Shown: positions 18,026 through 54,555 of the stretch, one piece after another | Layout: each line of letters begins with the position of its first letter | Numbering within the stretch: the first letter of the stretch is position 1 | Assembly: GCA_963576725.1 (NCBI GenBank) | Contig: OY755241.1 | Coordinates: 23,720,449 to 23,784,448 of the forward strand | DNA length: 64,000 nt | From: Azorinus chamasolen | Taxonomy: Eukaryota; Mollusca; Bivalvia; Cardiida; Solecurtidae | Direction: 5' to 3' | Notes under the pieces: model-generated | Told to the model about the DNA's origin: nothing | Seen by the model: only the letters and a program-made list of their open reading frames with translations | The model's database searches: none | Position numbers and translations under genes: made by a program

Positions 18026-18344
18026 AACCGGCCGCGTGGCTCAGTGGTAGAGCATCCGCCTGCGGTACGGAAGGTCGTGGGTTCGATCCCCGGCTGTGAC
18101 AGACCAAAAGTCGTTAAAAGTTGGTACTAGTAGCTCCCTTGTCTACGCTCGACAATAAAGGTGTAGTTCTAGGACTGGTCGGCCCTGTGTCAGAATAATG
18201 TGACTGGGTGGGGTGCCCTTGCCATGTACCTGCGGCAGGAGTATTCCAGTGAGGCAGCACTATAACTTGTCTCATGCGGGTGCCGTCTGCAAATAACTGA
18301 AATACTGTTGGTAGGACGTAAAACCCAACTCACTCACTCACTCA
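18026..18344 (+). mobile_element. tRNA-derived SINE with 11-bp target duplication
   Basis: Head with A box TGGCTCAGTGGTAGAGC and B box GGTTCGATCCC, then a body with a conserved-domain-like section (gaggcagcactataac ... gtctgcaaataactgaaatactg), ending gtaggacgtaaaacccaactcactcactcac. ACTTTTAAAGA flanks it at 18015-18025 and 18344-18354. The architecture matches tRNA-head SINEs of bivalves. The intact duplication indicates a fairly recent insertion. Confidence 0.9.
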
Positions 18345-42165: not shown

Positions 42166-42240
42166 TTTCTGTCGGTGTTTTAGTGATTGTGGCGTTTTGT
42201 GTGTTGCTTTTCCTGCTTGACTTTACTACTTTTTAATTCA
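42166..42240 (+). repeat. PLE 3' UTR fragment
   Basis: tctgtcggtgttttagtgattgtggcg ... ttcctgcttgactttactacttttt matches 46931-47000 and 52708-52778 (tctatcggtgttttggtggtggttgcg ... gcctgcttgactttactactttt). Confidence 0.7.
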
Positions 42241-42249
42241 TTCCAAATA

Positions 42250-43150
42250 TCAAATGTCAAGGCCTTACAATTTCAAAGATTTTCCTACCTATAGAAAACT
42301 GAAAGGGCCACTTTGTCCCTTGGGTCACATTTGGAACAAAATATCAAGGTCTAAGCCTTACAGTTTCGGAGAAGAATAAATTTTTAAAGATTTCCTATGA
42401 AAACATGATAAGCCTTGGGGCGGGGCCATTTTTTGTCCGGGGTCATAATTTGAACAATCGTTGTAGAGGACCATTTGATGATGCTACATACCAAATATCA
42501 AAGGTCTAGACCTTACAGTTTCGGAGCTGATTTGTAAAGATATTCCTATGAAAATTGATAAGACCCAGGGCGTCGCCATGTTTCGTCCAGGGGTTATTCG
42601 TTGGTCAATCATTGTAGAGGCCGTTAAATGATGCTACATACCAAATATCAAAGGCCAAGACCTTGCAGTTTTAGAGAAGATTTTTAAATATTTTCCTATG
42701 AAATACTAATAAGCCCAAAGGTGGGGCCATATTTAGTCCGGGTATCATAATTTGAACAGTCTTTGTAGAAGGCCATTAGATGATCCTACATACGAAATAT
42801 CAAAGGTCTAGGACTTACAATTTTAGAAAATAACATTTTTAAAGAATTCACTACGAAACCCTGATTAGCCCCGGAGCGAGGCCAGTTTTGGACTGGGGTC
42901 ATGACATGAACAATCTTTGTAGAGGACCATTAGTATCCGATCATGATACATACCAAATATCAAAGCTCATGGCTTTGTCTTTTCAGAGAGGAAGACGTTT
43001 AAGTAAATAATTATTGTTGACGATGCACTCGCACGACGAATGACGCACATACGCACGACGGCGGACGCCGGAGACAGCCTCTCATAATACATTTCCTTAC
43101 AGTAGGAAGTATAATGAATATGTCTCAGTTCCCACTATTTGTGGGAGACA
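42250..43150. repeat. ~155-bp tandem array, pearl-like architecture
   Basis: Core units marked by taccaaatatcaaaggtct at about 42489, 42639, 42790 and 42951, with ggggccat...gtccgggg...gtagaggaccatt between. The array is followed by a GACG/ACGG-rich stretch (43015-43075) and an end with cagttcccactatttgtgggagac hairpin-like sequence. Same layout of parts as the pearl elements but a different core. Confidence 0.65.
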
Positions 43151-44013: not shown

Positions 44014-44822
44014 CATAGAGCGACTTCGATCATCAACCAGTGGTCAATACGGTCTTTGAACGGACGCAGACTGGTCGAAGTTTGGTTTGGTTCCTCTAGC
44101 TCGCTCTTCACGAAAAAGGAACAAAACCACTATTGTGGTATTCAGAATACCAACTTCAGTTCGACAATACTGCAACCGTTGGTCTAACCAGAGACACTAA
44201 TTCTGAAAATGGGTGATCCCTCGAAAGCAAAAGTAGAAATGCAAAAACAGAAAATTGCAGACTCGGTTTTATTAAATATGTTCATGAGTAGTAATTAAAA
44301 GTGCAACACTACTCACGCCCCCTAGCACCGGCTTAAGCAGTATTCAATTTTTTAAACTAATAACATGAAAACTAATGACCCCGAAGGACCAGAAAATATA
44401 ACAACACTGAAAATGAAGTACGGCGCGACTTCTTACGGCCGCCACAGAAGCACTTAACACCTGCTGTTGTGAATACATATATTCTGAAAATGGGTGATCC
44501 CTCGAAAGCAAAAGTAGAAATTCAAAAGGAGAAAATTGCAGACTAGGTTTTATTGAGTCTGTTCATGAGTAGTAATTAAAAGTGCAACACTACTCACGCC
44601 CTCTAGCACCGTCTTAATCAGCATTCAATTTTCAAAACTTATAACATGAAAACTAATGATCCCCAAGGATCAGAAAATATAACAACACTGAGCATGAAGT
44701 ACGGGGCGACGTTTTACGGCCTCCAGTTTACTAAACTGACACTTTTCTCTAACCAGAGACAGTTCGATTAAACATTAGTCGAACAGTAGTCACAATAGTC
44801 GATGATCGAAGTCGCTCGATGT
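44014..44822. mobile_element. Inverted-repeat element with PLE fragments inside
   Basis: Ends CATAGAGCGACTTCGATCAT and the inverse of GATGATCGAAGTCGCTCGAT. Its own sequence is only 44014-44197 and 44748-44822. The middle is an inserted pair of PLE pseudo-LTR units. No transposase. Confidence 0.75.
44198..44747 (+). repeat. Two tandem PLE pseudo-LTR units, 14-bp target duplication
   Basis: attctgaaaatgggtgatcc at 44201 and 44481 (280-bp period). Each unit has the gagtagtaatt...acactactc hairpin and the caccggcttaagcagtatt segment. TCTAACCAGAGACA occurs at 44184-44197 and 44748-44761, directly flanking the insertion. A second unit ends at the tcctcc/ctccag border, so the insertion is 5'/3' truncated. 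Confidence 0.82.
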
Positions 44823-44824
44823 AT

Positions 44825-46432
44825 ATGAACCTGATTTCCGGTCTGGCTAAAACCCAGACTTGTTTACTAAGTCGGAACTTCAGTTCTAAATTTCATTCAG
44901 ATTATGTTCTTGTTCCTGCTGACAAGGCATCAAACAATGTAATCATTATTTGAAGATTGTATTATGTTGATGTATTAAAGAAGGAGCTAACTGATTCAAA
45001 AACTTATATAACAGTTCAAACACCTGAAAAAGATATAGTCTCGGAACATGTAAAAATGTGCAATAATTTTAAGTCTGGTCCTAATATAAAACAACATAAA
45101 CTTTCTACTTTGTACTGGATTCCGAAACTACATAAAAACCCTTATAAGTCGCGTTTTATTGCCAACTCTAGCTGTTGTACCACTACTAAATTATCTATAC
45201 TTTTGACGTCCTGTCTTACTACAATCAAAGAACATGTTAAACGCTACTGTGATAAAATATATGAAAATTCTGGTATTAATGTTTTTTGGTCCATAAAAAA
45301 TTCAAATGATGTTTTAACAAAACTTGAAAATGAACAGTATAACATTTCTTTACTGAGCTCTTATGATTTCTCTACACTCTATACTACTCTACCTCACCAT
45401 CTTATAAAGGATAAACTTATTAAATTAATAGAAAAAACCTTTGCCAGAGAAAACAAAATGTTCATTGCTTGTAATGGTCAACGTTCATTCTTTTCGAATT
45501 CAGAAGTTGAACATTACACAATGTGGACTTGCCTTGATGTTTGTAGATCTCTTACCTTTCTTTTAGATAATATATTTGTGCGTTATGGTGATACCATATA
45601 TCGTCAAGTTGTTGGTATACCCATGGGTACAAATTGTGCCCCTCTTGTTGCAGATTTGTTTTTGTATTGCTACGAGAGGGATTTTATGCTTAGCTTAAAA
45701 CCTGATACACAGACCGATATTGTTAATGCTTTTAATAAAACTTCAAGGTATTTAGACGATATTTTGAATTTAGATAATCCTTATTTTGATAGTATGGTTT
45801 CTTCAATCTACCCAAAAGAACTGTCTTTAAACAAAGCGAATCAATCTGACATTAATGCTTCATTTTTAGATTTGAATCTTTCAATTACAAATGATAAAGT
45901 TTCGTCCAAAGTATACGATAAAAGAGAAGATTTTAATTTTAAAATTGTTAATTATCCTTTTCTAGATGGGGATGTGCCACGTTCTACATCTTATGGGGTT
46001 TATATTTCTCAACTTATTAGGTTTGCCCGAGCCTGTTCTTTGCTTAAAGATTTTAACAGACGTAATTTAGTTATAACTGATAAACTTCTTAAGCAAGGTT
46101 ACAGATATCACAAACTTCGGAAAACCTTTTCTAAATTTTATTATCGAAATTTACCTCTCATTAGTAAATATAATTGCAATCTACGGACGTTACTGCGACA
46201 AGGCATTTCTCAACCAGAATTTTATGGGGATGTTATCTACAAACTTAGGAAAGTTCGGGGTCATATCCATTTTCATGATTTGTTTATAAAACGCATTAAA
46301 ACATTTAAAAAGAAAGGTTATGATCCTATTATATTGCAACACACTGCATGTTTGGTTATCGACCCTTTTACAGTCGGTAGCTACGCTTCCCTCTTTGCTT
46401 GCGCGATGACAGGCCGAGGTAGTAATCTATGA
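44825..46432 (+). mobile_element. Naiad-type Penelope-like retroelement, RT of copy 1
   Basis: One long frame with a single in-frame TGA (44951-44953) and then 491 uninterrupted codons. RT landmarks in order: YVLVPADKAS (finger start), STLYWIPKLHKNP, the LSSYDFSTLYTTLP motif, IPMGTNCAPLVADLFLYCYE, the catalytic box SRYLDDILNL, then SYGVYISQLIRFARACS and the KLLKQGYRYHKLRKTFSKF thumb-like region. GxxMGTxxAP with [FY]xDDI is typical of PLE reverse transcriptases. No endonuclease follows, as expected where it is N-terminal. The 5' half is missing: the frame emerges from an inverted-repeat element at 44822. The long open frame suggests a young copy. Confidence 0.8.
44951..44953 (+). other. In-frame TGA, candidate selenocysteine codon (RT, copy 1)
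   Basis: Reads ...ASNNVIII-TGA-RLYYVDVLKKEL.... It is the only stop-type codon in about 536 codons. The diverged copy at 52298 has TGA at the same alignment position (VIIV-TGA-RLHYIDVL). Confidence 0.6.
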
Positions 46433-46631
46433 TGGTATACTCTTAAACTTGGATACAGGAGGAGCTTACCAGACTCATGTATTACTTTTTCCCTGTCGTG
46501 CCCTTAACGGCTTACCTGCAGGTGCTCTGACTTCAGCAAAGTCATTGAGTACATATTTGACGGATTGTCACAGTTATTATGCTATGTTTTACATGTTGTC
46601 CTGTGTTCACCGTCGTCTATGTTGTGGGTAA
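46433..46631 (+). pseudogene. PLE copy 1 C-terminus, shifted frame
   Basis: After the TGA at 46430 the homologous C-terminal tail continues in another frame (GILLNLDTGGAYQTHVLLFP ... SAKSLSTYLTD), to TAA-type stop after RRLCCG. The inverted copy at 51119-50880 shows the tail in one frame (LVLYEGDLLNPEMEGER ... AAQSLSTLAIGG). A small indel near 46420 therefore separates it here. Confidence 0.65.
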
Positions 46632-46675
46632 GTCCAGCGGGGATACCTTTATTTACAATATTTGTAAAGCTAGGG

Positions 46676-47000
46676 TGACTTTGAGAGAAGTGTGAGGTTA
46701 GGACGTCCGTAAACCGGTTTAAACCCCCAGTGGTGTTTTTGCTGCTGACCGTGCCAAGGCGGTACTCTCTTTGTCACCCTTCCTTTTGTTTGCCTTGCGT
46801 CTTTGTGCTTGTGGTTTGTTTATGTTGTGGAACGTTTGTCCCTGGTTCTTGTGTGTCTTTTGGTGTTTTCTGTGTTCATTTCGTGTGTGTGTGTGTGCGT
46901 TTGGGTGTGGTTGTGTGTGTGTGTGTCATGCTGTCTATCGGTGTTTTGGTGGTGGTTGCGTCTTGCATGTGGCTTTGCCTGCTTGACTTTACTACTTTTC
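46676..47000 (+). repeat. PLE 3' UTR block with TG-rich tract
   Basis: gagagaagtgtgaggttaggacgtccgtaaaccggtttaaacccccagtggtg ... tgctgaccgtgccaaggcggtactc, a tg-rich run (46880-46925), ending gcctgcttgactttactacttttcc. Nearly identical to 52441-52788. The first part is also shared with 54340-54405 and, inverted, 50695-50760. Open frames here are low-complexity artefacts. Confidence 0.8.
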
Positions 47001-47102
47001 CATTTAAGTGCTCGTGTGTTGGTCGTAAAAGTTGCCTTGTACTCGTACTTCATTCTCAGTGTTATATTTTCTTACCCTTAGGGGTCATTGGTGGTATAAG
47101 TT

Positions 47103-47190
47103 TGAAAATTGAATACTGCTAAAGCCGGTGCTAGGGGCGTGAGTAGTGCTGCACTAAAGGATAACCACTTTCAGAATATATGCAGTAAAC
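47103..47190 (-). repeat. Inverted, truncated PLE pseudo-LTR
   Basis: gaaaattgaatactgctaaagccggtgctaggggcgtgagtagtgctgcac then a jump to actttcagaatata. It is the reverse complement of the pseudo-LTR unit with an internal deletion. Confidence 0.75.
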
Positions 47191-47486
47191 TCAGTACTTG
47201 GAATGGATTTAATCCTGATGCAATGTTTTATCCATAAGCAGGACCAAACCTACTATTAAATATACATTCACTCTTAGAACATACTGATAAGTTAAAGCAT
47301 TTAGGGGTTATCATTCAGAAGACTCAGAATATTTCTGTTTTAGATGCAGTCAGTTTCAAACACATCGTATCTTTCTATTTAAACAAGGGATTTCCATCTA
47401 CTTAGCACCGAATACTAACTATTCGGAAAGGATTATTTCTCTGTTAAAGATAATTGCACAAAATATGAAGGTGTGGAGATCTATTT
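47191..47486. other. No feature seen
   Basis: AT-rich sequence between a PLE fragment and an M1 copy. No ORF, repeat or RNA signal recognised. Confidence 0.5.
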
Positions 47487-47731
47487 AACCCTTTCCCCGG
47501 TGAATATTCATGTAGAAAAACCTGACGTCATGGATATTAATAAGATTATTTTTTATAATGGCATATGGCACAGTACATTTTGCCTCAGGCAGAAGCTGTA
47601 GAATCAGATCTATATTACACCATAAGCAAACGGAGCAGACCCTGATCAGACTGCTCCTATGGGAGCCGTCTGATCTGGGTCTACCCTGTTTGCAGATACG
47701 TCAAAATGTGCTTACATAAGGGAAAGGGATA
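47487..47731. repeat. M1 MITE
   Basis: tttaaccctttccccggtg left, aagggaaagggataag right. Hairpin gcaaacggagcagaccctgatcagactgctcc / ggagccgtctgatctgggtctaccctgtttgc. Confidence 0.82.
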
Positions 47732-48045
47732 AGGAATGCTATGAGATTTGAATAAGCATTATACTTGTTCAGACCATTTCATTTTTCCTGACTCAATCCT
47801 TGCTGTTAGCACTCACTTGGACAGTGTTGATAAATTTTAAAGCGTTAAACAAATATTGTAAGAGGGGTAACAATAGGTTTTGAGTCATATTCAATTATTT
47901 GCTGCTACTTAATTTTATTAATTTAGAGTATTATGAATCAGTTCTTTTCGGTATACATGTTGACATAGAATACATATACACCATATGTATGTATGCAAAC
48001 TGGACGTTGGCTTGTTGATTAATACCTACTAATAAGTAAAATTAC

Positions 48046-48332
48046 ATGGTGTTAGAAGTCAACATGTATTTGGATATATACAATGCCATTAATCTTCGAT
48101 CGCCTGATAGACTGCAGTTTGAAGGAGATTTGAAAGAGATTTGCCGAAAGTTCAAACTGCCTTTTGATGTATATTTATCTGCTACAGGACTTGACGAAAG
48201 GCACGACAAAGTGAAATGTTTTATGTTGCTGAAAATTATTGGCCGTGAGGCATATTCCGGTGGAATGAAGAAGGCGATGCTCATGCAGACGCTTTTAAAG
48301 TCAGCAAGATCTGGGCAATATTTGAAAAATAC
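48046..48332 (+). pseudogene. Ty3/gypsy gag, N-terminal part, split from the rest
   Basis: Opens at ATG 48046 and includes RLQFEGDLKEICRKFKLPFD and YLSATGLDERHDKVKCFMLL, the beginning typical of gag in K02A2.6-like Ty3/gypsy elements. The frame runs to 48345, but its last codons lie in the mariner end starting at 48333. The gag segment expected next resumes at about 54556. TGGTGTTAGAAG right at the start resembles a primer-binding site, so a 5' LTR may end near 48045. No matching 3' LTR was seen. Confidence 0.65.
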
Positions 48333-49100
48333 GAGGGGTGATTGATAAGGTCGCAGAATTGCTTGATTATTTAAACATGGAATAGTAAACGAAAAAACAA
48401 AGTATATCACGTTTACTCACGACTAACATAGAGCTCAAATACTATTTAGATACATTGAACAAAAAAAAAGTCTTCATGAAACATTGAACAATAGTACTAT
48501 GTAGTACTTAAAGCACGCCGATGTCAACGTTGGGCCACGCTGACGTTACTTAAACGTAAAAGTCAACTGTCTGTTTACCTTTCTCGACGTAATCATCTAA
48601 TGTGGCCACATACTTTAAATAACTTTCTACCCATTGGTCAAATGTTACCTTAATCCAATCCTCACTGAATGATGAAACTATTTCATGTGTCTTGTAATGT
48701 ACATGTAATATCTAAAGGGGTTTCAAACTGTTGGCCTCTAAGTTCCTTCTTCAGATCATGAAACAGATGAAAGTCCAAAGGGGCTAAAATTCGTCGACAA
48801 CCACTGAAATTCTACCATCCCTAAACAGGTCGTGCCATTTTCAACAGGTTGATAATGTGTTTGTAAATTGTTTTGGTGTTTCTTCCGGTGAAAGTTTGAG
48901 TCCCATACATAATTTGACAACCGCGCCCAAGTCAATGTCATCTGTTGACGTCATGCACCGTTTTGAAACCATGGCCATAAGACGCTGATGCGAAATAACC
49001 GGCGGACACAATGTTTCCAAACTTTCGAATCGTCACGCTAACAACAGTTGCATTCGTGCCAAATATGTGTTAAATTTGACTGCGCACTAGCATACCTAGT
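48333..49100 (-). pseudogene. Mariner transposase remnant, C-terminal region
   Basis: The minus strand at about 48790-48700 reads APLDFHLFHDLKKELRGQQF, the third catalytic-Asp region of mariner transposases (usual form: PDLAPSDFHLF). At 48665-48570 it reads SFSEDWIKVTFDQWVESYLK and YVATLDDYVEK. The edge at 48331-48352 is TA|CGAGGGGTGATTGATAAGG, a mariner-like terminal repeat. Frameshifts throughout. The other end was not found, so the right limit is approximate. Confidence 0.7.
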
Positions 49101-49225
49101 GAATTCAGAATATGTGAAATAATAACAGCATGCTTCAAGTCAAAAAACAGCTGATGTAGATACCATTTATTCTTCTTACGGGTAAAATATCTATTTACCT
49201 CCCTAATAATGTATACAACTGTTTT

Positions 49226-49256
49226 CTGCATGACTCATTTTTGTATTTTTATTATC
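49226..49256 (+). repeat. PLE terminal sequence at the left edge of the complex
   Basis: ttttctgcatgactcatttttgtatttttatt, a match to the 3' terminus at 54519-54550 (ttcctgcatgactcatttttgtactttt). The PLE complex is thus bounded by the same ~30 bp on both sides. Confidence 0.65.
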
Positions 49257-49259
49257 ACA

Positions 49260-50545
49260 ACAGTGTTGCTTGTGCCTTGTGGTGGCCGTAAGTCTCCCCG
49301 TACACGTAATTGATGTTGTTATCATTCTCTTGCAGGATATGCAAGTAACATACACAACTCTCATTCGCCTCTTATATCATCATAAGTATGTCATGCACCT
49401 CGTGGTAGGTGTTGTGTTCACCAACAATTTGATGCACATGGTAGCTACACTAATGTAATTGACGTGTTGATGAACACAATACAGGTGTCCCTCTATCACT
49501 TTCCAATATGAATAAAGTTAAAATATCTCTAATAGAACTGAAAGCTATAAATATGCAATCTGTGTCGTCTGTAGAAGTACCCAAAAGTATTTCTAATTTC
49601 TCTTCCCTTCAACCTTATGCTCGTTTAAAACCACTTAATCTTCAGTCGGCATCATCTTTTCACATACCATCTCTTTCTGTTAAAGAATGTGTTTTCAATG
49701 GACCAAGAGTTGTACTGTCACCTTTAAAATCTGTTATCCAAAATGTTTCTTCTATTCGTAAATGGTCCTTATACAAGCGACACAGAGTGTATCCGATTAT
49801 CCAAAAGTGCTTTGCTAAGAGGTGCATATGTTGCAGTAACATTTCTTGTAATTCCACTATAAAATCTACAGTTAATGGTAGACCCTTTAATGTCAAGATA
49901 ATCTCAGACGTTGATTGTACTACTACTAAAGTTATTTATGTTTTAACTTGAAACGCCCCTAGTTGCGGTATATAGTACTAAGGACAAACGGGATGTGCTT
50001 TGAAGACTCGATTTCGTGAGCATGCATATCAGTGTCGAAATCGTAAACTAAAACATTTTTACACTAACACTTTCGGAAATCTGGCCATTCTTGTAAAGAT
50101 GTTTTAGTACAAATTGTTGAGCATATAACATATGATAAGGATGCTACAAGTAGATTTAAATCGAAAGCTAGATTAATATCTGAATTAAATTTGATCATAA
50201 AATTGCAAACGCCTTTTCCTTTAGGATTGAATGATAATATTTACCAGACTGGAAATAGTTCAAAAGAACCTCATATAGTTATCTTTTCAACTTTTTCTAT
50301 AAGAAAACGCAAAACTGGATCACATGGCATTCGCAAAAATGGTAATATTAAACGAAAATCTCGTTTGAAAATGACTATTCTTGATCTACATACTTTACGT
50401 CTAGCTTCTGGTAAACATACTATGCTATCTAGACTTTCCTCCTTATCTATATCTTCATTAAAAGAAATTGACGAGCCAGCCGATAAAATTATTTTTAGAT
50501 CAGATCCTCTCATAAGAACGGCTAGTTTGATACAAAAAGTACAAA
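49260..50545 (+). pseudogene. Naiad-type PLE N-terminal endonuclease module (GIY-YIG-like)
   Basis: A long frame from ATG 49508 ends at TGA 49949-49951. Before it stands CICCSNISC and FNVKIISDVDCTTTKVIYVLT, and after the TGA NAPSCGI. PLE endonucleases have VIY(L/V)(I/L)xC...C(G)xxYVG here, so TGA sits at the Cys of a Cys pair in the GIY part. Further on TRFREHAYQCR is the R-x3-H helix of GIY-YIG enzymes. One frameshift near 50075 leads to the frame through 50530 (IYQTGNSSKEPHIVIFSTFS, basic tail). There are true nonsense codons (TAG and TAA near 49975-49985). An upstream Cys-rich frame (49264-49500) with TGA at 49311 may be the N-terminus. An endonuclease ahead of the RT is the permuted order of Naiads. 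Confidence 0.7.
49949..49951 (+). other. In-frame TGA, candidate selenocysteine codon (endonuclease)
   Basis: VIYVLT-TGA-NAPSCGI: the TGA occupies the place where PLE GIY-YIG endonucleases usually carry a Cys of their zinc-binding set (from general knowledge of the family). Confidence 0.5.
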
Positions 50546-51477
50546 AATGAGTCATGCAGGAAACACCACATACAGAACAAACACTCGCCCGAACAGCAAC
50601 ACAAGGAAACAGCAAATGTACATAAGTAGAAAAAACAACAAGAGACGCACAAAGACAAAACAAACATACAATAGGAGGAAGATGGAAGTACCGCCTTGGA
50701 ACGGTCAGTGACAAAAGTCACTGGGGGGTTAAACCGGTTTATGAGCGCCCAACCTCACACTTATTCCATCCCCATCCTAAAAGACAAACAGTGTAAATAA
50801 ACGTATCCCCTCTCCGACTAACCTACAACAACCGCGACAGCAAATACAGTGGTAAAATGCATGTATAACGAAAAAACATTTAAGTGAACATACTGTATCC
50901 ACCTATCGCTAGTGTACTCAATGATTGAGCTGCAAACAGAGTAACTGTAGAAAAGTAATAAAGGGTACGACAAAAATGAAATAGTACAGATATCCGACGT
51001 TCTCCTTCCATTTCTGGATTTAAGAGGTCGCCTTCATAGAGTACTAAACCTTTCTTGTCGGCGTACATGCAAAGTGGCCAGCGTGATTGCCAACTGTAAA
51101 AGGGTTCACAACCAAACATGCAGTATGTTGTAGTGCTACAGGATCATATCCCTTTTTAATGAATTGTTTTATACATTTGATGAACAAAGTGAGAAAATGG
51201 GTATGTCCAATAACTTTACGAAGTTTGTAAATCAGATCACCATAAAATTCAGGATGTGAAATACCGTGTCGCAGAAGCTCCTTGAGATTACATTTGTACT
51301 TGCCAATAAGCGAGAGATTTCGATAGTAAAATTTAGAGAAAGTTTTTCTTAGTTTATGGTATCTATATCCTTGCTTAAGCAGTTTTTCAGTTAAAATGAG
51401 ATTTCGACTGTTAAAATCGTCAATAGATGAACAAGCTCTAGCAAAACGAATAAGTTGAGATAAAAGCTTTACTCTAC
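50546..51477 (-). mobile_element. Inverted 5'-truncated PLE insertion (RT C-terminus and 3' UTR)
   Basis: On the minus strand: about 51477-51110 encodes LSQLIRFARACSSIDDFNSR, KLLKQGYRYHKLRKTFSKFY and HGISHPEFYGDLIYKLRKVI. In the next frame it gives the tail to FT* at 50880, then the UTR (ggttgggcgctcataaaccggtttaacc) and the 3' terminus (cctgcatgactcatttttgtac) at about 50540. It splits the plus-strand element between the endonuclease and linker modules. Confidence 0.75.
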
Positions 51478-51917
51478 ATGTTCTCAGACCGCACATTGAC
51501 AAATTATCTGAACACCAAAGATTATTCTTGAAAATTCCATTTCTTAATAAAGGTATTGATTTTATTGACCTCCAAAGTATTTTTAGATACAAAAATGTAA
51601 TTGACACTATTCCTAAATACTTTAAAAATACAGAACCACGTATCATCTGCTACAAATATAACAAACCCATCAGAAATACAATTTTGAACTATAACAATAT
51701 TGTGACCGACCTTAATATTAATGATAATATTCCTGATAATTGAGATTGCACCACCTCATATTTTGATATTCTCCGGCTGGTCATGTGATTACTGGTAATT
51801 TTGAGATAATTAAAGATAAACGTCTACGATCTCTTTTGAATAAAGGTCCCAAATTTAGAATATCATCCTTGATAGATTTTAACTCATGTCGAGTTCAAAT
51901 TGCGGAGGCTTATCAGT
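51478..51917 (+). pseudogene. PLE linker and RT N-terminal region with UxC motif
   Basis: Plus-strand frame 51480-51740 (HIDKLSEHQRLFLKIPFLNK ... YNKPIRNTILNYNNIVTDLN), then TGA-GAT-TGC at 51741-51749. This is the position of the CxC motif that joins endonuclease and RT in Naiad/Chlamys PLEs. A frameshift then leads to GHVITGNFEIIKDKRLRSLL and LIDFNSCRVQIAEAY. It precedes the RT start at 52080 and follows the endonuclease at 49508, giving the EN-linker-RT order once insertions are disregarded. Confidence 0.68.
51741..51743 (+). other. In-frame TGA at first Cys of the CxC-type motif
   Basis: Reads NIPDN-TGA-D-C-TTSYFD. With selenocysteine at TGA this is UxC. This linker motif is characteristic of N-terminal-endonuclease PLEs. 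Confidence 0.58.
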
Positions 51918-52078
51918 TTTGAAAATTGAATACTGCTTAAGCCGGTGCTAGGGGGCGTGAGTAGTGTTGCACTTTTAATTACTACTCATGAACAGGCTCA
52001 ATAAAACCGAGTCTGCAATTGTCTCCTTTTGCATTTCTACTTTTGCTTTCGAGGGATCACCCATTTTCAGAATATTAG
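51918..52078 (-). repeat. Inverted PLE pseudo-LTR inserted in the RT
   Basis: tgaaaattgaatactgcttaagccggtgc ... gagtagtgttgcacttttaattactactc ... tcgagggatcacccattttcagaatatta, the reverse complement of the unit at 44201. Confidence 0.85.
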
Positions 52079-52440
52079 TATTAAATGGTGTCGAAGAGAA
52101 CATGTTGAGTCTAATGCTCTTTCTAGATGGCAAAAACTAATTTTTGATATAATTGACAAACGCATTTCCTTTTATAGCTCTAATAAACACCTTCTTCCAC
52201 CTGAACCTATAATGTCTGTTAGACATATTAAAAAGGGTTTACAGGATTTCAATTCAAAATACGTTTTGATAAGGCATCGAATAATGTGATTATTGTTTGA
52301 CGATTACATTATATCGATGTCTTGAAGCAGAAAATTATTAATACCAAGTCATACATTTCAGTTACTACTGACGAAAAGACCATGTTAAAAAGTGTAAACA
52401 ACTTTGAACCGATATTAAAATTACAACACAAGATAAACTT
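52079..52440 (+). pseudogene. PLE RT, N-terminal fingers (copy 2)
   Basis: Frame with IKWCRREHVESNALSRWQKL and IMSVRHIKKGLQDFNSKYVL, then a short deletion/shift, DKASNNVIIV-TGA-RLHYIDVLKQ (TGA 52298-52300), and on to about 52440. It is cut by a copy of the 3' UTR block and continues at 52789. Confidence 0.72.
52298..52300 (+). other. In-frame TGA, candidate selenocysteine codon (RT, copy 2)
   Basis: Same position as 44951-44953 in an independent, diverged copy (flanks differ at several codons: VIIV/VIII, LHYIDVLKQ/LYYVDVLKK). Confidence 0.6.
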
Positions 52441-52788
52441 CCTTTGAGAGAAGTGTGAGGCTAGGACGTCCGTAAATCGGTTTAAACCCCCAGTGGTGTT
52501 TTTGCTACTGACCGTGCCAAGGCGGTACTCTCTTTGTCACCCTTCCTTTTGTTTGCCTTGCGTCTTTGTGCTTGTGATTTGTTCATGTGTGGAACGTTTG
52601 TCCCTGGTTCTTGTGTCTTTTGGTGTTTTCTGTGTTCATTTCGCGCGTGTGTGTGTGCGTTTGGGTGTGTGGTTGTGTGTGTGTGTGTGTGTGTGTGTGT
52701 CATGCTGTCTATCGGTGTTTTGGTGGTGGTTGCGTCTTGCATGTGGCTCTGCCTGCTTGACTTTACTACTTTTCCATTCCTACAATGA
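52441..52788 (+). repeat. PLE 3' UTR block inserted in the RT
   Basis: Begins gagagaagtgtgaggctaggacgtccgtaaatcgg and ends gcctgcttgactttactacttttcc. About 90 % like 46676-47000 by eye, with a longer TG tract (52672-52700). It interrupts copy 2 between the fingers and the palm. Confidence 0.8.
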
Positions 52789-54235
52789 TTGGTTACCAAA
52801 AATTACATTAAAAACCATACAAAGCGCGTTTCATTGCAGATTCTAGTTCATGTATAACTACTAAATTGTCTATACTTTTGACTTCTTGTTTAACGAAGGT
52901 AAAGGAACATGTAAAATTCTACTGTGATAAGACTTCTGGAATAAATCTCTTCTGGTCAATTAAGAACTCTTCAGACGTCTTAAACAAACTTAAGAACAAA
53001 AGGTATCTTGCATCCAATGTAAGCACGTAGGATCTATCTACTCTGTACACAACTCCGGATAAGCTTACTAACTTAATTCAGAAAGTATTTGCCCGGGGAA
53101 AAACATCATTCCTGGCATGTAATGCTGAAAAAACTTTCTTTACTGACGAGTAAATGAAATATTATACTAATTGGACGTGCTCAGAAGTTTGCGAATCACT
53201 AACCTTTCTTTTGGATAACATATGTGTACGTTATTGGAATGCTATATACCGTCAGGTATTATTGGTATTCCTATGGGTACGAATTGTGCACCACTTGTCG
53301 CAGATATGTTTTTGTACTGCTATGAGAGAGATTTCATGTTGCGTTTGAATCCTCAATCACCAGAAGATGTTATAAAAGCCTTCAATGAAACTTGCCGATG
53401 TTTGGATGATATTTTTAACTTAGATAACCCTTTCTTTGATGCTCTGATTCCTACAATTTATCCTAAATATCTCAAATTGAATAAAGCTAACCCGTCCGAC
53501 AATTATACAGCGTTTCTTGATCTAGATCTTAAAATTGATAATGGAATAATTTCTTCTAAAATATATGACAAAAGAGATGATTTTGATTTTAATATTGTAA
53601 ATGTTCCTCATCTTGACGGGGATATTCCCCGTGCTCCATCTTACGGGGTTTATATATCTCAACTTTTTCGTTTTGCTAGAGCTTGTTCATCTATTGACGA
53701 TTTTAACAGTCGAAATCTCATTCTAACTGAAAACTGCTTAAGCAAGGATATAGATACCATAAACTAAGAAAACCTTTCTCTAAATTTTACTATCAAAATC
53801 TCTTGCTTATTGGCAAGTACCAATGTAATCTCAAAGCGCTTCCGCGACACGGTATTTCACATCCTGAATTTTATGGTGATGTGATTTACAAACTTCGTAT
53901 ACTTATTGGACATATCCATTTTCTCACTTTGTTCATCAAATATGTTAAAAAAATTATTAAAAAGGGATATGATTCTGTGGTACTACAACATACTGCATGT
54001 TTGGTTGTCAACCCGTTTACAGCAATCACGCTGGCCTTTTTGCATGTACGCAGACAAGAAAGGTTTAGTACTCTATGAGACGACCTCTTAAATCCAAAAC
54101 CGGAAGGAGAACGTCCAATATCTGTACTATTTCGTTTTTGTCTTACCCTTTATTACTTTTCTACAGTAACTCTGTTTGCAGCTCAATCATTGAGTACACT
54201 AGCGATAGGTGAATACAGTTTGTTCACTTAAATGT
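52789..54235 (+). pseudogene. PLE RT, palm to C-terminus (copy 2), decayed
   Basis: Parallel to copy 1 from ARFIADSSS-like sequence through KEHVKFYCDK, a TAG in place of Tyr before DLSTLYTT, a TAA near 53153, a frameshift before IPMGTNCAPLVADMFLYCYE (53267 on), CRCLDDIFNLDNP (catalytic box), SYGVYISQLFRFARACSS, another shift near 53740, and HGISHPEFYGDVIYKLR. The C-terminal tail runs on to about 54230 with an indel near 54075. Presence of TAG and TAA shows real decay, in contrast to the conserved TGA at 52298. Confidence 0.78.
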
Positions 54236-54555
54236 TTTCGTTATACATGCACTTTACCACTGTATTTGCCATCGTGGTTGTTGTAGATTAGTCGGAGAGG
54301 GGATACGTTTATTTACACTGTTTATCCTTTAGAGTGGGGATGGAATAAGTGTGAGGTTGGGCGCCCATAAACCGGTTTAACCCCCCACCAAGGCGGTACT
54401 TCGATCTTCCCCCTATTGTATTTTTGTTTTTTCTTTGTGCATCTCTTAATGTTTTTATAGTTATGTACATTTGCTGTTTCTTGTGTTGCTGTTCGGGCGA
54501 CTGTTTGTTCTGTATGTGGTGTTTCCTGCATGACTCATTTTTGTACTTTTAATGT
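54236..54555 (+). repeat. PLE 3' UTR and terminus (copy 2)
   Basis: Contains gaataagtgtgaggttgggcgcccataaaccggtttaacccccc ... ccaaggcggtacttc, and ends ggtgtttcctgcatgactcatttttgtacttttaatg. The gypsy gag resumes at about 54556. Confidence 0.75.

Follow-up and report, generated by a model that had tools for sequence, protein, structure and literature searches.

Given that TGA codons interrupt the frames of two diverged retroelement copies in a 64,000-nucleotide stretch of the genome (1.72 Gb) of the bivalve Azorinus chamasolen (contig OY755241.1, positions 23,720,449 to 23,784,448; hereafter the window), we asked whether these codons are the marks of dead copies, or whether the element, a Naiad-type Penelope-like element (PLE), uses UGA to encode selenocysteine (Sec, U). 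A preliminary description of the window had favored the second answer, naming in-frame TGAs at 44951, 49949, 51741 and 52298, and all four are present there. We consider it very probable, at roughly 95%, that copies of this element encode a selenoprotein in which UGAs at cysteine columns are read as Sec by the host machinery through a selenocysteine insertion sequence (SECIS). On the evidence of sequence, Sec recoding is strongly supported, because the TGAs occupy fixed columns across two subfamilies, the frame downstream of them is under selection, a SECIS with compensatory changes accompanies the frame, and the host has a tRNA-Sec. The window contains a young, 5'-truncated copy (copy 1, 44881-47006) and an older, interrupted one (copy 2, 49220-54551).

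Fixed TGA columns in two subfamilies

Columns are numbered on the full-length copy L018, whose frame has 1063 codons and which belongs, like copy 1, to subfamily 1. Among 20 loci of this subfamily fetched from the same genome as the window, with 21 reverse transcriptase (RT) matches, four (L009 in its second copy, L013, L018 and L026) carry a 1063-codon frame from ATG to TAG in which the only stops are TGAs at 137, 148, 436 and 574, and the remaining loci are 5'-truncated or frame-shifted. In the L018 protein, U137 and U148 lie in the GIY-YIG endonuclease, U436 in the CxC linker and U574 in the RT, and a TAG closes the frame. Over these loci and the window, TGA occupies column 137 in 8/9 cases (the ninth, copy 2 of the window, has TGT), column 148 in 9/9, column 436 in 14/14 and column 574 in 23/23, with the final TAG in 23/23. 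In all 21 RT matches the TGA of the RT is present, and so is the closing TAG; one match (L022) is offset by a codon relative to the query. Copy 2 aside, the subfamily-1 loci show a single extra stop, a TAA at 446, close to the 5' edge of L010, and a further copy of the subfamily, L059, has TGA at the four columns plus a TAA at 327. A genome search with the RT frame, in which the best 87 of 48,821 candidates from a first look (hits, and not copies that were confirmed) were scored, gave 86 matches, the window included, that are open directly behind column 574. The TGAs at 44951 and 52298, taken by the preliminary description for one and the same RT position, both map to column 574, and those at 49949 and 51741 to columns 148 and 436. 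Its three Sec columns therefore stand, but the set was incomplete, as subfamily 1 has a fourth at 137, where copy 2 carries TGT at 49916.

A second subfamily was sampled in 29 loci (L030-L058), some of which carry subfamily-1 pieces: L045 and L054 are recognized as such carriers by their low synonymous divergence (dS), and L054 also by identity. The window itself (L029) was kept out of the column count and the SECIS scan of this set. TGA was found at 436 in 12/12 loci, at 574 in 16/17 and at 148 in 2/2, and column 137 shows one TGA (L054) and one TGT (L057). Over 15,755 codons there are 59 other stops, which are scattered, with at most two of one codon in any aligned column. Thirteen further stretches (L059-L071) gave ten matches (L062, L070 and L071 had none), two of which, L066 and L068, cover no Sec column. 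They add TGA at 148 in 5/5 and at 436 in 8/8 (two of these already counted in L030-L058), and at column 137 a TGA in the subfamily-1 copy L059 and TGT in the subfamily-2 stretches L063, L064 and L069, with four scattered TAAs, one of them in L059. The second subfamily thus appears to have kept three TGAs and to encode Cys (TGT) at 137, although it is near synonymous saturation with respect to subfamily 1. CGA was absent from the Sec columns of the subfamily-1 loci, the window, L030-L058 and L059-L071. Across copies of this genome these columns accordingly hold TGA (TGT at 137 in subfamily 2) and one TTA, which agrees with what the preliminary description had expected of a multi-copy comparison.

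P0114, a relative that has Cys at both 436 and 574, was the query of a genome search scored for the best 54 of 39,361 candidates (again first-look and not confirmed copies), which yielded two TGAs in 53 and three in one and, over about 826 codons, no internal TAA or TAG; since ranking by score favors intact copies, these counts do not give the state of the average copy. The open frame was 915 in 48 of the 54, which, provided the lengths agree, would fit a stop at column 148. L074, the one copy that was read from this search, has its two TGAs at columns 436 and 574.

The same columns are near-invariant cysteines in related proteins. In an alignment of 122 relatives made with MAFFT, Cys accounts for 74/74 of the rows with a residue at 137, 76/79 at 148, 116/120 at 436 and 117/122 at 574, in accord with the earlier placing of 49949 at a Cys site by the GIY motif and of 51741 at the first C of CxC; the query was searched with C in place of U, which may slightly favor Cys relatives. 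Pairwise alignment of the 118 proteins of a second search gave at 436 111 C, two N and one each of W, S and K, at 574 116 C and two W, and C in 73 and 74 at 137 and 148. In an RT search, 102 of the 120 proteins listed, out of 2484, are without column 574, and the 18 that cover it have 13 C and five W. Database open reading frame (ORF) calls homologous to the fragment from U148 to U436 agree with a Cys-to-Sec exchange: among the 120 listed of 525, 70 end exactly at 435, 39 exactly at 573 (all with Cys at 436) and 11 elsewhere, these ends being extrapolated from the alignment. That search was limited to proteins of about 158-502 residues, which excludes full-length Cys forms, yet the exact end columns are not a product of this limit. 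At nine query columns at least 90% of the relatives have Cys, and the probability that four TGAs placed at random among 1063 columns would all fall there is 2.4e-9, a post hoc figure. Relatives P0103 and P0344 bear the names of bacteria living in lucinid clams, which fits contaminating clam DNA, and P0184 and P0221 are named for the pearl oyster Pinctada imbricata.

We then compared L018 with the 29 loci for selection on the frame behind the TGAs. Behind column 574, the ratio of nonsynonymous to synonymous divergence (dN/dS) is 0.09-0.18 in 28 loci, with L045, a mixed locus, at 0.55, and goes with dS values of 1.2-2.7 in 26 of the 29 (L042 0.87, L045 0.33, L054 0.18). Between 436 and 574, dN/dS is 0.14-0.21 in 14 of 17 loci, 0.35 in L041 and 0.54 in L045, with no silent differences in L054. 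The low ratios, together with silent sites near saturation, indicate that the RT is under purifying selection downstream of the fixed TGAs.

A SECIS-like hairpin and the host tRNA-Sec

At the end of the frame, a hairpin was found in all loci scanned (20/20 of subfamily 1 and 29/29 of L030-L058, that is 49/49) and at three places in the window, using a model (R1) built from these same elements, the loci being close copies; the scan covered these two sets and the window, with L059-L071 outside it. The preliminary description had expected a SECIS behind the frame, and a SECIS-like hairpin is indeed there, but not in the two blocks it pointed to (46676-47000 and 54236-54555): in the window the hairpins sit at the frame end, at 46413-46494 (+), 54059-54139 (+) and 50972-51053 (-). 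The predicted fold has two helices, the first of them basal, together with an AUGA/GA core and an apical loop that carries AAA. Of 21 distinct stretches, seven were aligned (alignment A1) and show invariant AUGA/GA core columns, while the 14 omitted from A1 include decayed ones (window 54059, L038, one of L046, and L055). Pairing holds in 89% of the cells of A1, compared with 43-59% when the partners are slid, though the structure was derived from one of the sequences and so has an advantage over the slid versions. Between the subfamilies, 6 of 25 pairs are changed on both sides, i.e., compensated, and the number of cells so changed was reached in 0/500 shuffles. The UAG stop codon lies within the basal helix (columns 8-10 of A1), whose 5' strand extends into the coding frame.

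For the decoding machinery, a host tRNA-Sec scores 80.7 bits (gathering score 47) and is called tRNA-SeC with anticodon TCA by ARAGORN. Weaker matches of the tRNA-Sec search are unspecific, with signal in 14/14 controls, five of them over the cut-off.

The window copies and the Naiad layout

In the window, the element and its parts are arranged as follows.

44881-47006 (+): copy 1, a young 5'-truncated subfamily-1 Naiad with RT part and 3' untranslated region (UTR); 98.5% identity to L018 over 2137 columns
44951-44953 (+): TGA, Sec column 574 in the RT (NNVIII-U-RLYYVDVL); relatives Cys in 117/122
44954-46429 (+): RT frame, open behind the TGA, 492 codons; 87 scored genome matches, including the window itself
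46413-46494 (+): SECIS of copy 1; R1 model 79.7 bits, Rfam SECIS_1 18.9 bits, E 1.2; folded
49220-50534 (+): copy 2 (subfamily 2), 5' part with pseudo-long terminal repeat (pLTR) end and GIY-YIG endonuclease; 92.9-93.8% identity to L057, L064 and L069
49916-49918 (+): TGT (Cys) at column 137 in place of the subfamily-1 TGA
49949-49951 (+): TGA, Sec column 148, VLT-U directly before the GIY-type motif; relatives Cys in 76/79
50535-51462 (-): fragment inserted into copy 2 in inverted orientation, being the 3' end of a young copy of subfamily 2; 98.2% identity to L043 over 928 columns
50972-51053 (-): SECIS of the inverted fragment, core intact; R1 model 99.2 bits, Rfam SECIS_1 26.0 bits, E 0.063
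51459-51911 (+): copy 2, linker part; 95.6% identity to L064
51741-51743 (+): TGA, Sec column 436, first C of CxC (U-D-C); relatives Cys in 116/120
51910-52082 (no strand): short repeat inserted into copy 2; 94% to inverted matches at 44200-44363 and 44472-44644
52064-52443 (+): copy 2, start of the RT part; 87.1% identity to L049, 87.6% to L057
52298-52300 (+): TGA, Sec column 574 of copy 2, mapped on L018
52442-52778 (+): subfamily-1 fragment, 3' UTR only, inserted into copy 2; 93.8% identity to L018
52777-54551 (+): copy 2, remaining RT part and 3' UTR; 91.5% identity to L057
54059-54139 (+): SECIS of copy 2, core GA changed to CA (decayed); R1 model 76.9 bits

In copy 1, homology begins at 44881 rather than at 44825, the start given earlier, but the further claim of a lone TGA with a long open frame after it is confirmed: the TGA at 44951 is the sole stop before 46430, and the chance of 492 open codons behind it is about 6e-17 at the local base composition, with codons treated as independent. 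Its local frame ends in a TGA at 46430, within the AUGA of the SECIS, where other copies end in TAG. The pieces of copy 2 are 87-96% identical to other copies, and its further stops (TAG at columns 156 and 711, TAA at 158, 187, 635 and 758, TGA at 444) are scattered and come with frameshifts, so that their earlier reading as ordinary decay holds. The short repeat forms two head-to-tail units before copy 1 (44200-44725) and one inverted unit in copy 2 (51910-52082), 91-94% identical, and is perhaps a small mobile element. Elsewhere in the window, 42230-42992 holds three to five units, 63-87% alike, spaced by about 150 bases, and a tRNA-like match of 33 bits at 18031-18101 is the sole Rfam hit at gathering score.

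The layout supports assignment to the Naiads, as previously proposed: a GIY-YIG endonuclease comes first, followed by a CxC linker and an RT that by fold is matched best by telomerases. PF01541 (GIY-YIG) matches residues 142-190 of the L018 protein at 19.8 bits (E 0.001), under the curated 22.6, and exceeds the cut-off in relatives P0125 (22.9) and P0136 (25.5). The linker motif reads U436-D-C438, with C438 in 119/119 relatives that have a residue there. RVT_1 was not reported by Pfam in the L018 protein and is under the cut-off in P0125 and P0136; around residue 840 of L018 lies the RT motif RYLDD. Pfam gave no domain in the four window fragments, and the family profile had no match among PDB sequences, so the link to RTs rests on the fold search. 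The AlphaFold model (mean predicted local distance difference test score 85.6, predicted template modeling score 0.71) has telomerases as its top 15 Foldseek matches in the PDB, at template modeling (TM) scores of 0.23-0.32 by query and with large root-mean-square deviations, and after them viral RNA polymerases and bacterial RTs. Four subfamily-1 matches stand head-to-tail at C4:2144622-2158667 with a spacing of exactly 4192 bases, L018 has the end of its 3' UTR repeated ahead of the frame in a pseudo-LTR arrangement, and the window holds the inverted 3' fragment. No hammerhead family appeared in the Rfam scans, which covered the window, and no relatives in a scan of viral contigs.

Craig, Yushenova, Rodriguez and Arkhipova reportedly described Naiad PLEs with multiple selenocysteines from clams and spiders in Mol Biol Evol in 2021 (msab225). 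Those elements reportedly share with ours the N-terminal GIY-YIG, the CxC linker, the RT, the tandem and inverted arrangement and UGA at Cys positions, so that the present element adds to a known group. Cys-type Naiads (P0125, P0136) have the same domain order, with Cys at the four columns in place of the TGAs seen here. The top Foldseek match, the telomerase RT 6zdq_A (E 1.1e-11, TM 0.31 by query), has the RT fold in common at 12% identity; telomerase is not known to have an endonuclease or selenocysteine. Selenoprotein P, a host selenoprotein with several Sec residues, likewise has several UGAs in one frame, but is a host gene and not a mobile element. Beside the published multi-Sec Naiads, we see Sec sets that differ by subfamily (four vs three) and a UAG within the SECIS basal helix; we claim no difference here, and the Sec/Cys exchange at 137 and the stop codon in the SECIS helix may or may not already be in Craig et al. 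2021. PMC11167929 cites Craig et al. 2021, and among the papers listed in a literature search none dealt with selenocysteine in PLEs, judged by titles and abstract beginnings.

Recoding, its rivals and its consequences

Under Sec recoding, a single protein joining endonuclease, CxC linker and telomerase-like RT would be a selenoprotein, its three or four in-frame UGAs, at near-invariant Cys columns of relatives, being decoded as Sec by the host. One SECIS, with the UAG stop in its basal helix, would direct Sec insertion at all of them, and Sec would presumably do the job of the Cys it replaces, perhaps in metal binding or in the fold of the endonuclease and linker.

Several observations weigh against this account. 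Column 574 is TTA in L042, and the subfamily-1 match C16:23427244-23428713, one of the 87 scored, has an open frame of 627 reaching further upstream, which implies that its Sec codon there seems to have been lost or replaced; moreover, genome searches that score best matches only favor intact copies. Because R1 derives from the elements themselves and the loci are close copies (L030-L058 were chosen by likeness to the adjoining RT end, which makes them close relatives), its hits speak for the presence of the hairpin rather than for its independent identity. With Rfam SECIS_1 the hairpins reach 26.0 and 18.9 bits at permissive thresholds, below the gathering score of 35, at which a scan of the window found no SECIS; the permissive scan of the whole window placed its sole SECIS hit within the element, at E 0.94. 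The core is altered in copy 2 (54059-54139, GA lost) and in L055. The covariation comes from two subfamilies, and in the shuffle test 51/500 runs had at least as many pairs with changes in both partners and 500/500 at least as many further pair types. Finally, the type of stop that ends the database ORF calls is not visible.

Could the TGAs simply be ordinary decay, for example by CpG deamination of CGA, in dead copies whose frame is a pseudogene? Copy 2 is indeed decayed, with TAA, TAG and frameshifts, but two subfamilies near synonymous saturation have TGA at the same columns in nearly every copy that covers them, dN/dS downstream is about 0.1, and the residue of the relatives is Cys and not Arg, which leaves decay a negligible chance. 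CGA hypermutation, for its part, is rejected, as the subfamily-1 loci, the window and L030-L071 show no CGA at any Sec column. Slightly less remote, though still highly unlikely, is leaky read-through, or a deliberate stop separating the endonuclease from the RT product, without Sec. The long open RT behind TGA574 alone would suit such a split, and recoding at four UGAs is expected to be inefficient; a generic leaky stop, however, would not have to coincide with near-invariant Cys columns or to alternate with TGT, UGA148 interrupts the endonuclease domain itself (142-190), and the SECIS-like hairpin accompanies 49/49 loci. That UGA stands for another amino acid in these transcripts, such as Trp, we regard as scarcely credible. 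It draws on the few database proteins with W at these columns (two W besides one Q at 148, four W at 436, five W at 574 in the 122-relative alignment), and these residues also count against Sec, but nearly all relatives have Cys and the hairpin is present. For the W in P0043, P0045, P0046, P0107, P0116, P0122 and P0123, true Trp was considered, but a UGA that a gene caller read with code 4 seems the likelier source.

Returning to Sec recoding, it is tempting to speculate that selenium gates the mobility of the element: three or four Sec insertions would be needed, termination and Sec decoding would compete on one structure, since the UAG lies within the SECIS basal helix, and the set of Sec columns would switch between Sec and Cys from one lineage to another (at 137 in subfamily 2, at 436 in those relatives with ORF calls that stop just ahead of 574). 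We hold this extension to be rather improbable. For genome annotation, such elements can be split or dropped as pseudogenes although Sec recoding leaves their frame intact. Young multi-copy families in which Sec and Cys are exchanged, in turn, offer a natural series in which to ask why the costlier Sec is kept in an RT and an endonuclease, and whether selenium limits transposition.

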